Below are positions 7,744-24,091 of a stretch of 38,089 bases of DNA, piece by piece (within the stretch, counting starts at the first letter, position 1; each line of letters begins with the position of its first letter). A program made the translations under genes and the position numbers. The DNA comes from an uncultured Bacilli bacterium (GTDB lineage Bacteria; Bacillota_I; Bacilli_A; RF39; UBA660): positions 1 to 38,089 of the forward strand of contig CANRCZ010000012.1 in NCBI GenBank assembly GCA_947629265.1. The letters run 5' to 3'. The notes below the pieces were generated by a model. It did no database searches. It saw only the letters and a list, made by a program, of their open reading frames with translations, and was not told the origin of the DNA.

Positions 7744-7873
7744 ATTAAAGAATACTTAAAATTTATATAGTAGTACTCTAAATATAGATAATTCATAAAA
7801 ATTTCAAAATAATGTAATTAAAAACCTAACCATTTATAAAAAATTAACACTATATAATTGAAAGGTGATCATT

Positions 7874-8347
7874 GTGGACAAAATTTATGATGAATATTAT
7901 TATAAAATATATAATTGGGCAATCAAAAAAACACATTGTAAAGAAGATGCTGAAGATCTAACCAATAGCGTTTTTTTAGCAATATTTGAATACTTTAATA
8001 AAAATATTAAAGTTGAAAAACTGGAAAATTTAATATGGAAAATAGCTTATAACTTATGGTGCACCAAAGCTAAAAAATATATTAAAGAAAAAAACACTAT
8101 AGCGGTCCTAGACAATTATGAATTAGGATACGAAATTCCCATGTTAGATAAAATTATATATAAAGAAATCATAAATGACTTAGATAATATTGGTTTAACC
8201 AATAAAGAAATGGTGGCATTTAAAATGTACTATATAGATGACCTTTCAATAAAAGAAATTAGTGAAAAAATGAACACTAAAGAAGCTAATATAAAATACT
8301 TTTTATATAGTGCTAGAAATAAAATAAAGGAGAGATATTATGAATAA
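7874..8347 (+). CDS. RNA polymerase sigma factor, sigma-70/ECF type
   Basis: A 157-residue protein from GTG 7874; an upstream in-frame GTG at 7865 lies within the AAAGGTG ribosome binding site. Region 2 spans about residues 5-60, with the helix CKEDAEDLTNSVFLAIFEY. Region 4 spans about 105-155, with LTNKEMVAFKMYYIDDLSIKEI followed by NTKEANIKYFLYSARNKIK, a typical ECF sigma-4 helix-turn-helix. The short length without sigma-3 identifies an ECF-like factor. The downstream gene overlaps by 8 bp and would be the natural place for an anti-sigma or regulated partner. Genes that follow include an M3-like protein and sortase B, so an envelope regulon is plausible. Confidence 0.75.
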   Translation: MDKIYDEYYYKIYNWAIKKTHCKEDAEDLTNSVFLAIFEYFNKNIKVEKLENLIWKIAYNLWCTKAKKYIKEKNTIAVLDNYELGYEIPMLDKIIYKEIINDLDNIGLTNKEMVAFKMYYIDDLSIKEISEKMNTKEANIKYFLYSARNKIKERYYE

Positions 8348-9029
8348 TTTAAGTTTAGATAAGTACTTAAATATCGTTAATGAAGAAAAAATAAAAAGAG
8401 GATTAGAAAATTATATTCCTCTATATCCAATGTTTAGAGTAGATAATGATAAACTATACGTTAGTGTAATGTTAACCGAAGATAAAGATAATGTTTGGAG
8501 TAAAGATGAACATATCAAGTCAGAGTATTGGGTTTTAATCGACATTAACAACGATAAAATTTTAGAATTTAATAAAACTGATGATAAAGATTTTGTGATA
8601 GGAAATTTAATACCTAAAAATACCGATGATAAACAGCAAGAACTTTCAAAATATACTGTTCAAAAGACATTACAATATAAAAATTATTTAATCAATGATA
8701 TAAAAAATGAAGAATTACCTTTACAAAAAAAATTATCAGCTGTTTTAAATAGTGAGATGGATATCGATGGTGAAAAAGTTAATATAAATGATTATTTGCT
8801 ATCAAATTTAGAAGAAGATATCAAATCAAAAATTAATGATTTAGTCGATATTTTAATTCAATCAAAATATGGTTCGATTACTTTTTATTACGATCAATTA
8901 TTTAATACTATTGCAAATAATTATAAAAATGATAAAATTATAGATAGAGATAAAATTAAATTATGCATTGAAATAATGAATAATTATTATGATGGTGTTA
9001 TCGGTATCGATAATATGTTTAATATTTAA
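8340..9029 (+). CDS. Unknown protein co-translated with the sigma factor
   Basis: A 229-residue protein I do not recognise. It has no signal peptide and no membrane segment, so it is not a classical membrane anti-sigma factor. Residues 25-75 look like a beta-rich domain (YPMFRVDNDKLYVSVML, then EYWVLIDINNDKILEF). Residues 100-229 are predicted helical, with charged Lys/Asp/Asn-rich stretches. Start ATG 8340 sits inside the sigma gene behind GGAGAG, giving an 8-bp overlap and coupled translation. A cytosolic partner or regulator of the sigma factor is the simplest inference from position, but no sequence motif proves it. Confidence 0.5.
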   Translation: MNNLSLDKYLNIVNEEKIKRGLENYIPLYPMFRVDNDKLYVSVMLTEDKDNVWSKDEHIKSEYWVLIDINNDKILEFNKTDDKDFVIGNLIPKNTDDKQQELSKYTVQKTLQYKNYLINDIKNEELPLQKKLSAVLNSEMDIDGEKVNINDYLLSNLEEDIKSKINDLVDILIQSKYGSITFYYDQLFNTIANNYKNDKIIDRDKIKLCIEIMNNYYDGVIGIDNMFNI

Positions 9030-9051
9030 TAGCAAGTGTTGGTGATATATT

Positions 9052-10176
9052 ATGTGGAATATAAAAGAAATAAATTTAAAAAAAGATTATGTTACAGAAA
9101 GACTAAAAAATTGTGATGACTTAAAAGAAAAAGAAAAACTAAATTTATCTTTAGCATCTTATAAAGCATTACTTGATAATAGTGGAACTTTGCGTTATAC
9201 AGGTCTTTATAATACGATGGATAAATTAACCGAAAATAAATTTTCAGAAAAACAACAAGATGGTATTGAAAAGTTAGAATTGTTCTCTAAAAATGGTGAT
9301 TATATCGATAATGATTACCTACAATTTTTAGTTGACCTTTGTAATAATATCGCTAGAACTAAAGAAATTACCTTTGATGATAAAGACTTTTCACCTATTA
9401 ATACTGATTATAAAAATATGTTGGATACGTCTTATGATTTTTATAATGATTTAGGTGATACAGAGATTTTAGCGAATGCTAAAAAACTTTTACTTGATGA
9501 ATCTAGTATCAATATATCAAAACTACCTAGACGTGGTATGGATGAACATAACGGATTATCTTTCAATGATTACGTGTTTAATAAAGCTTATATTACCATG
9601 ACAAAACAAAATAATATCTTCGATTATCAAGTTTTAAATCACGAGGTAATGAATGGAGTAGACTTTTATATAAAAAATAAAGTTCCTAGTGAAAATTACG
9701 TTGGATTTAATGAGGTACCAGCTTATACGATGGATTACTTATTTATCGATTACTTATCATCAAAAGGAATGGATGAAAATGAAATTCAAAAATTAAAATT
9801 AAAAAAAGATAACTATCTTAAAACATTAGCTACATCCGCTAAAACCCAAATTAGAAATGGCTTAATCAGAAATAACAAGTATCAATTTACGATGGATGAT
9901 ATAAGAGAAATATTAAGTCCTGAATTAACAAAACAATTGTTAGAATTAGAAGCTGGTGTCGTTTCTTATGGACTATATAATCAAATAAAGATGAATAAAC
10001 AAAGAGGATTAGATAACTTAAAAAAATTTATGCAAAATATTCTACCTAAATCCCAAACACCAAATTTTTCATTTATCGATTTAGATAATGAAACACTATT
10101 AAAATTAAGTAAACAAATTGGAACTTACTCAAAAGATACTATGAATTTACAAGATAATAAAAATATCAAAAGATAA
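9052..10176 (+). CDS. M3-peptidase-like protein with altered zinc motif
   Basis: A 374-residue, mostly helical protein without a signal peptide. Residues 170-240 resemble the active-site region of oligopeptidase-like gluzincins (M3). A strand or helix with NKAYITMTKQNN leads to YQVLNHEVMNG, and about 20 residues later comes FNEVPAYTMDYLF, which looks like the third-ligand Glu helix. The usual HExxH is HEVMN here: His and catalytic Glu are present, but the second zinc His is Asn. It is also shorter than M3 enzymes (about 560-700 residues). It may be an inactive relative or use another ligand. It lies 22 bp after the unknown gene and ends at a terminator, so it belongs to the sigma-factor operon. 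The family call is tentative. Confidence 0.4.
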   Translation: MWNIKEINLKKDYVTERLKNCDDLKEKEKLNLSLASYKALLDNSGTLRYTGLYNTMDKLTENKFSEKQQDGIEKLELFSKNGDYIDNDYLQFLVDLCNNIARTKEITFDDKDFSPINTDYKNMLDTSYDFYNDLGDTEILANAKKLLLDESSINISKLPRRGMDEHNGLSFNDYVFNKAYITMTKQNNIFDYQVLNHEVMNGVDFYIKNKVPSENYVGFNEVPAYTMDYLFIDYLSSKGMDENEIQKLKLKKDNYLKTLATSAKTQIRNGLIRNNKYQFTMDDIREILSPELTKQLLELEAGVVSYGLYNQIKMNKQRGLDNLKKFMQNILPKSQTPNFSFIDLDNETLLKLSKQIGTYSKDTMNLQDNKNIKR

Positions 10177-22882: not shown

Positions 22883-22936
22883 ATAGTAGAATAATAAGTC
22901 TAAATATTGTTAATAATAGTAGTAAAGGAGCGTTTT

Positions 22937-24034
22937 ATGAGGAAAATAATTGATAAGATACTTAATCAGAAAAAGTTTATTTTAGGAACTATTTTCGGGG
23001 TTATGATTATGGGTGGTATCAGCTATGCTGCTAATAATTATACTAGTGAAAGTGTTAGTTACACAAGAGGTAATGACACTATGAGTGTAAAGCAAGCGTT
23101 AGATGACCTTATTGTTAAAGTGGATAAGAAGAGTGGTAACTTTAATATTGAGTTAGCTGAAAGACCACTAGGAATAAATTTTACAGAAAGTACAACAACA
23201 TATCAGTCACTTGTTAATGATTTACTTGGAAGAATGATAACAGCAATGGGAACAGCTAATACAGCCGATTTATCAGCAATAAAAAGTTCAACACTAACCT
23301 GGAAAAGTGAAGATCCAAACACAGCAAGTGTAACTGGAACAGTCGTAAAAGGTGTTAAAGAGGGAAAAACAAAAATAATAGGAACAGCGACAAATGGAAA
23401 ACAAGTAATAGTACCAGTAAATGTCAAATCAGCGGTAGTTTTAGCGGAAAAAGCCCATGTAGGAGAATATGTTGCATATGATGCTGGACAATGGAACGCT
23501 GATGCTGCTAGACCAACGAAATCAGGACAGTTCGGTGGATATAGTAAAAATCAAAGTAAGAACGCCAGTGTAGAATGGTGCAATAATGATAGTCATAAAA
23601 CAACATTACAAGGTTGGCGAATACTTGATATAAACACAAGTACTAAAACTGTAACTATCGTACATGCTGGCCAACCTGAATGTTACTACCATGGAACTAA
23701 TACAAATTCTAGTAAAACATATTTGGATAATAGGGCAGACACAGAATATAAAAATTCAATATACGCTGATTCCGCTCATGCTATGACATACGATGAAGCA
23801 AATTCAATGTCCGTTGATTTACGAAAAACCGGAGATTTATATTGGCTGGCTACTGCATACAGCGGCACTGACTTGTATCGCGTGGGCGACACAGGCAGCA
23901 TCTACATCAACGGCACCAGCAACTCGTACGGTTTCCGGCCGGTTGTAGTTCTAAAATCTGGTATCCTAACTACAGGACAAGTATCAGATGGCCTTGGACA
24001 CAATAATGCATGGAATTTAGTATTACCAAGTTAA
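22937..24034 (+). CDS. Exported Big2-like protein with candidate DGR variable region
   Basis: A 365-residue protein from ATG 22937, behind AAAGGAG. An N-terminal membrane or signal segment (about 10-30, ILGTIFGVMIMGGISYA) precedes SVSYTRGNDTMSVKQALDDL and a bacterial Ig-like (Big2-type) domain at about 85-162 (TWKSEDPNTASVTGTVVKGV). The C-terminal domain (about 165-365) has CLec-like features: WRILDINTSTKTVTIV, DLYWLATAYSG and YGFRPVVVLKSG. The segment 23841-23950, coding for the YWLA...GFRPVVV cassette, is 62/110 G+C in a region that is otherwise strongly A+T-rich. From the Tyr of AYSG to the Phe of GFRP, 19 of 26 codons end in C. This fits a variable region copied from an AAC-rich template by a DGR. 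No reverse transcriptase or template repeat is in the window. Confidence 0.7.
   Translation: MRKIIDKILNQKKFILGTIFGVMIMGGISYAANNYTSESVSYTRGNDTMSVKQALDDLIVKVDKKSGNFNIELAERPLGINFTESTTTYQSLVNDLLGRMITAMGTANTADLSAIKSSTLTWKSEDPNTASVTGTVVKGVKEGKTKIIGTATNGKQVIVPVNVKSAVVLAEKAHVGEYVAYDAGQWNADAARPTKSGQFGGYSKNQSKNASVEWCNNDSHKTTLQGWRILDINTSTKTVTIVHAGQPECYYHGTNTNSSKTYLDNRADTEYKNSIYADSAHAMTYDEANSMSVDLRKTGDLYWLATAYSGTDLYRVGDTGSIYINGTSNSYGFRPVVVLKSGILTTGQVSDGLGHNNAWNLVLPS
23841..23950 (+). repeat. Candidate DGR variable repeat
   Basis: A GC-rich island (62 of 110 bases) at the 3' end of the surface-protein gene. It is dense in NNC codons (TAC, AGC, GGC, GAC, ATC, AAC) that are otherwise rare here. It ends with TACGGTTTCCGGCCGGTTG, containing the palindrome CCGGCCGG (23935-23942). 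A G/C-rich 3' end is the usual initiation-of-mutagenic-homing position. The template is not in this window. Confidence 0.5.
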
Positions 24035-24069
24035 TAATATACTTGCTATAAATTAAACAATATTACACT

Positions 24070-24091
24070 AAAGGACTAATGTCCTTTTTTG
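24070..24091 (+). terminator. Rho-independent terminator of the surface-protein gene
   Basis: AAAGGAC, loop TAAT, GTCCTTT, then T. Confidence 0.8.

Follow-up and report, generated by a model that had tools for sequence, protein, structure and literature searches.

The question raised by this locus is whether an unusually G+C-rich stretch near the 3′ end of a gene is the variable repeat (VR) of a diversity-generating retroelement (DGR) target that is separated from its reverse transcriptase (RT). The window, i.e. the whole stretch of DNA that was analysed (38,089 nt), is contig C12 of a 1.22 Mb draft genome with 44 contigs (91% complete). We consider it very likely (probability about 0.9) that the stretch is the VR of a remote DGR target. 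The gene in question codes for a product of 365 aa and is neighboured by a methionine gamma-lyase gene and a phosphoketolase gene. Its in-frame ATG is preceded by AAAGGAG (Table 1). An Rfam scan of the window returned nothing at gathering cutoffs.

Table 1. Features of the remote DGR target gene and its surroundings (positions in the window).
Feature	Position	Strand	Basis
Remote DGR target gene (very likely): membrane leader, stalk, Big2-like segment, C-terminal DUF6273-like domain with VR	22937..24034	+	60% to 44% identity to ten other full-length paralogs in A1
Shine-Dalgarno-like AAAGGAG ahead of ATG	22924..22930	+	sequence
Hydrophobic leader KKFILGTIFGVMIMGGISYAA, signal/anchor segment	22970..23032	+	sequence; kept among paralogs
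Big_2-like segment	23285..23407	+	Pfam match under curated cutoff (20.2 vs 22.8 bits)
C-terminal DUF6273-like domain	23435..24031	+	common to all 76 paralogs; AlphaFold2 model, weak DUF6273 matches in BFVD
5′ part of variable repeat	23843..23887	+	TR1 match at all 31 non-A positions, 7/14 A altered
3′ part of variable repeat, NNC-rich	23888..23938	+	framework as in other VRs; exact match to neither TR1 nor TR2
CCGGCCGG element, where the G/C part of an IMH-like boundary would sit	23935..23942	.	sequence; role inferred
Terminator-like hairpin AAAGGACTAATGTCCTTTTTT	24070..24091	+	sequence

The initial annotation had counted 62 G+C among the 110 nt at 23841-23950, which holds exactly; the whole gene has 37% G+C and the window 28%. 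This is the G+C-richest region of the window, no 110-mer outside 23700-24050 reaching 62 G+C. The count of 19 NNC codons among 26 was a slight miscount: from AYSG up to GFRP, 18 of the 25 codons are NNC (15 of 21 without AYSG). None of the 8,300 stretches of 26 codons in 28 further ORFs of the window has more than 9. When 16,964 windows from the upstream stretches of 76 paralogs served as control, the NNC fraction had a mean of 0.08, a 99th percentile of 0.27 and a maximum of 0.385, compared to 0.69 in the window core, which is far outside chance. The C-terminal cassette WLA...YGFRPVVVL is present as described. The assignment as a Big2-like protein is backed only by a sub-threshold Pfam match.

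A single RT gene occurs in the genome, on a different contig from the window (C1:57384-57980; L042:10205-11098). Its assignment rests on motifs (SQ-type IGSMTSQ, and YQDD) and on a match to the PHROG RT family (E=4e-75), without an RT tree. Along L042, a target gene with its VR (about 7818-8890, the cis VR) is followed by a G+C hairpin, a MutS-I-like ORF (8961-9407), Avd (9385-9759), the template repeat TR1, an RNA tail and the RT; this is a complete DGR cassette. Avd, next to the RT, matches PHROG with E=2e-19 and NCBIfam with 2e-12, the latter under the curated cutoff. TR1 (L042:9812-9912, approximate) lies between Avd and RT, is non-coding and AAC-rich, and has 21 A-bearing codons, none of which is able to yield a stop. 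RT-14 RNA (RF02921) was detected on the template tails, above the cutoff of 48.1 on C9 (49.9) and just below it on C1 (46.9). Folding of the template tail alone was no better than that of shuffles (z = -0.5), and the RT-14 assignment therefore rests on the covariance model. A second cassette, on C9, consists of a VR fragment, a MutS-I-like gene, Avd, a second template (TR2) and an RT-14 tail above threshold, and is devoid of an RT. In viral contigs, relatives of the RT show 30-43% identity only, and no copy of the template tail was found there.

A few observations concern cassette integrity. In the RT-less cassette at L043:6736-7879 (minus strand), a large serine recombinase gene runs into the VR, and a 6S RNA match is found just downstream. 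Decayed cassette remnants occur directly 3′ of target genes, one being truncated (C2:24915-25166; L051:6916-7164) and one a fragment (G000:C10:26698-26788, in the genome of the window). Possibly, cassettes duplicate with their target and then erode.

The hallmark of DGR mutagenesis is evident when VRs are compared to the template. Over 101 nt, the cis VR differs from TR1 at 15 of 34 A positions and at none of 67 non-A positions (Fisher 1e-8), so that an adenine-only TR-VR pair is shown in cis. An adenine-only match to TR1 is also shown for the 5′ 45 nt of the window VR (23843-23887), where all 31 non-A positions agree and 7 of the 14 A are changed. This run was picked as the longest and its Fisher value (8e-5) is thus descriptive; the argument is carried by two controls. 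When C, G or T instead of A was allowed as the free base, the best run had only 15-17 nt. Among 500 codon shuffles of the window VR, at most 11 non-A bases were matched, compared to the 31 observed. Another remote VR, C24-1954, matches a different part of TR1 over 45 nt and departs from it at adenines only (10 of 19 A and none of 26 non-A positions changed).

The proposal that RT and template lie elsewhere in the genome has largely held: one RT, Avd, a MutS-I-like gene and an AAC-rich template are found on another contig. It would have been refuted if the genome had no RT or no A-restricted near-repeat, and both are present. The expected near-identical template of about 100 bp was confirmed only over the initial 45 nt of the window VR, its 3′ half being unmatched by TR1 and TR2.

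A rival explanation is a horizontally acquired G+C-rich insert, or a loop that merely evolves fast and has biased codon usage. It is supported by the high G+C content within an A+T-rich genome and by undiversified DUF6273-like homologs in other Bacilli and in Clostridia. However, the G+C excess does not extend beyond the NNC codons of the VR, dozens of paralogs show it at this same site, and the A-specific match to TR1 would have to be coincidental. We regard this explanation as all but excluded.

As a whole, the window VR has no perfect template: it differs from TR2 at 14 of 81 non-A positions and from TR1 at 14 of 77, with gaps. The search for a third template scored the best 40 of 52-56 candidates per search. 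A template that would fit the 3′ half can be inferred, AAC ACA GGC AAC ATC (AAC)5 AGC AAC TCG TAC, i.e. ...AACACAGGCAACATC(AAC)5AGCAACTCG..., and was not found. Nor did a comparison of third codon positions reveal a sibling VR that fully matches the 3′ half and would share its template. As the 3′ half fits neither TR1 nor TR2, its template has been lost or superseded, or is unassembled; the assembly is broken at target genes, with 23 contig ends lying no more than 1 kb from a cassette, and a third template may thus lie in an assembly gap. We infer that the window VR is a mosaic of successive rounds, its 3′ half originating from another template that may have been lost, superseded, or be absent from the draft.

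The initial annotation had singled out a G/C-only palindrome, CCGGCCGG, which occurs once in the window. As a special palindrome in its own right it was rejected, being the G/C end of the VR that is common to other VRs. It is followed by CCGGTTGTAG, as in both templates, while the next TTCTAAAATCT differs from them. Of an IMH-like boundary, the G/C element and a template-like CGGTTGTAG are present at the window VR. The conserved G+C hairpin located just 3′ of the cis target was not found downstream of the window gene, and its competence as a retrohoming site is therefore unproven.

It is conceivable that the window VR is a fossil, written earlier by the same DGR from a TR1-like and a lost template, no longer diversified and now part of an ordinary surface gene. 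In favour of this, the 3′ half is without exact template, cassettes decay in this genome (a truncated remnant on C2, a fragment on C10, the RT-less cassette on C9) and leftover VRs have been reported in Treponema denticola (PMC4891356). Against it, none of 75 cores has ameliorated less than the NNC core of the window, which ranks above that of the cis VR, and the 5′ half is still perfect relative to TR1 at non-A positions. On balance we lean against a fossil VR. Retrohoming at the present time is an inference; ongoing activity is untested, and no strain or read variation data are available.

The designation of the window gene as an orphan target proved to be an understatement, as the family linked to the single RT has at least 76 members, this gene included. 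At least 76 C-terminal cassettes of the target family were found, with ORFs that sum to 71 kb (about 6% of the 1.2 Mb genome). This number represents family size; how many members are currently DGR targets is not established. Among 75 paralog cores, NNC fractions range from 0.69 (window, rank 1) down to 0, the cis VR being lower than the window. NNC signatures are shown for about half of them, 38 being above the 99th percentile of the control and 28 above its maximum. Even in low-NNC cores, third codon positions are pyrimidine-rich. Our inference from this gradient is that cores were rewritten and then drifted towards the A+T bias of the genome.

With such a family, gene conversion among paralogs could shuffle cassettes in a vlhA- or msp2-like manner, without reverse transcription at the window locus. 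Indeed, 76 paralogs with common flanks would be expected to recombine, and the VR looks mosaic. However, such copying is blind to base identity and alone cannot yield differences restricted to A from a non-coding template. In addition, the nearest paralog, the cis VR, still differs from the window VR at 27 codon positions and by one gap. Gene conversion as the sole process is thus considered very unlikely.

The reading of the window gene as a remote DGR target is supported by a sister species of the same genus (G002). There, six template loci were found, at least five of them in an array around the RT (L110; G002:C30:9000-14600), each of these five templates having a conserved RNA tail. The sixth template-like match is on another contig (G002:C10:19972-20112). 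A perfect remote TR-VR pair, with the VR on yet another contig, is shown for this species (16 of 35 A changed, 0 of 68 non-A); its other VRs have 2-8 non-A differences from the best template. Among the genomes searched, the target family is large only in the RT-bearing genus (at least 76 genes in the genome of the window, 27 hits in G001 and 20 in G002), and two other family members yielded 1-3 hits. About half of the searched family members have an RT related to that of the window genome.

The leader of the window protein is a membrane or signal segment. At its C-terminus, DUF6273 is matched weakly in Pfam (15.5 vs a cutoff of 23.5). The AlphaFold2 model has a pLDDT of 71 and is of low confidence in the VR. 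A fold search of the PDB with this model gave no match, so that the proposed C-type lectin fold is unsupported by the model and its link rests on the DUF6273 literature. The best fold matches in BFVD are DUF6273 proteins (E 0.03-0.2), none being significant. A profile of the paralogs found no meaningful match among PDB sequences, and the window protein had no match in a genome-contig collection. Searching with the paralog alignment retrieved only distant homologs in Bacilli and Clostridia, without NNC cores. Surface display of the protein, with the VR as binding face, is inferred.

Five targets have type IV prepilin N-termini (C2+50602, C4-43400, C14-3024, C15-551, C30-2768), and the DGR domain may thus sit on pilins. 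A pilin-like protein (L043:2273-4159) ends with VTYTN..VKQALDYVYGKL, which is similar to the stalk motif SVSYT..VKQALDDL after the leader of DGR targets; a shared docking motif is possible.

In the mechanism that we propose, the RT, together with Avd and the MutS-I-like accessory, would reverse-transcribe non-coding AAC-rich template RNAs with an RT-14 tail, misincorporating at adenines. The cDNA would then take the place of the corresponding 3′ end in many unlinked genes with a DUF6273-like C-terminal domain.

DGRs, Avd, remote targets, DUF6273 targets and RT-14 RNA are already known. The TvpA-type DGR of T. denticola (PMC4891356) also has one RT, A-specific TR-VR pairs, dispersed surface-protein targets and leftover VRs with the template gone. 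It differs in having 2-7 targets per strain, compared to at least 76 paralogs here, and in its FGE-sulfatase-type target domain and HRDC accessory, in place of the DUF6273-like domain and MutS-I-like accessory. In the relevant sections of that report, neither a template array nor a poly-G tract is described. Cyanobacterial DGRs with remote variable proteins (PMC7517822) share dispersed paralogs, template homology at 3′ ends and proposed targeting in trans. There, however, 121 DGR-diversified genes are spread over 21 genomes and code mostly for cytosolic kinases and peptidases, not for secreted or pilin proteins. In DGR targets of Faecalibacterium prophages and in tentaclins (PMC11792537, PMC10743442), DUF6273 likewise has the VR at its C-terminus and was modelled in those studies as C-type lectin-like, but these are phage-encoded systems with one or two targets in cis. 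Thiohalocapsa PB-PSB1 (PMC10907252) resembles our case by activity in trans and by duplicated, decaying DGR loci, but this multicellular bacterium has nine DGR loci acting on conflict-system sensors, compared to a single RT here. A large survey of DGRs in metagenomes states that remote targets would escape its own detection (Roux et al., PMC8144416). As a 2019 survey lists 91 TR-VR pairs in one Pseudomonas record, called atypical (PMC6642488), we claim no record for repertoire size.

An additional level of variation is suggested by poly-G tracts. In 39 of the 76 targets, G9 or G10 is found about 21 nt after the ATG (e.g. G000 C1:54836, C9:3872, C1:705), and most G9+ tracts of the genome belong to the target family. 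The window gene has no poly-G at its start, and no G/C run of 7 or more occurs in the window. In the assembly, an intact start lies upstream of 36 tracts, all of which are out of frame; the long ORF is reached with one G fewer in 32 cases and one more in 1 case, and 3 are cut by contig ends. The in-frame leader is MKEKIRLGGGYLLIILILLVV... in poly-G targets, and a prepilin leader ending with KGFTLIELLAV in pilin-type targets. Pilin-type genes with the same DUF6273-like domain in G001 and G002 also have G9. They are out of frame in L120, L124, L130 and L134; for L121 and L161, G9 leaves an internal ATG in frame, and their state thus depends on the start used. Phase variation on top of DGR mutagenesis is possible, inferred from an assembly that gives the majority tract length only. 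The uniform out-of-frame state may mean that the repertoire is largely silent, that one leader was copied recently, or that slippage occurs during transcription or on the ribosome, and the data do not decide between these. In phase variation of surface genes by homopolymeric tracts (PMC1891110, PMC2831843), the reading frame is likewise set by poly-G after the start codon; here, in distinction, the tracts are on genes that are also DGR targets.

In a bolder reading, one DGR RT with several interchangeable templates would write random binding faces into about 76 dispersed secreted or pilin-type proteins, and poly-G slippage would hold about half of these out of frame until a one-base slip brings a new variant to light. 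The genus to which this would apply consists of uncultured Bacilli with reduced genomes. Taken jointly, these statements could as well be wrong as right. Compared to the literature searched, three features are apparently new: the repertoire size linked to one RT, the array of templates whose tails are conserved, and poly-G on DGR targets. If variation in trans were confirmed by reads, this would be a DGR repertoire of unusual size for a single cell. If true, the poly-G layer would couple hypermutation to ON/OFF switching, a coupling that was not found in titles and abstracts holding both terms. Template arrays and decaying cassettes record template turnover. The system makes it possible to test how so many targets are served by one RT and whether copies that are silent get rewritten.

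Poly-G tracts were also observed in promoters. Two G10 tracts are part of 19-nt spacers between TTGACA and TATAAT (L190:681-711, L191:351-381), and one of these promoters precedes the gene for a secreted, membrane-anchored protein. Phase variation by promoter-spacer length is possible for these.
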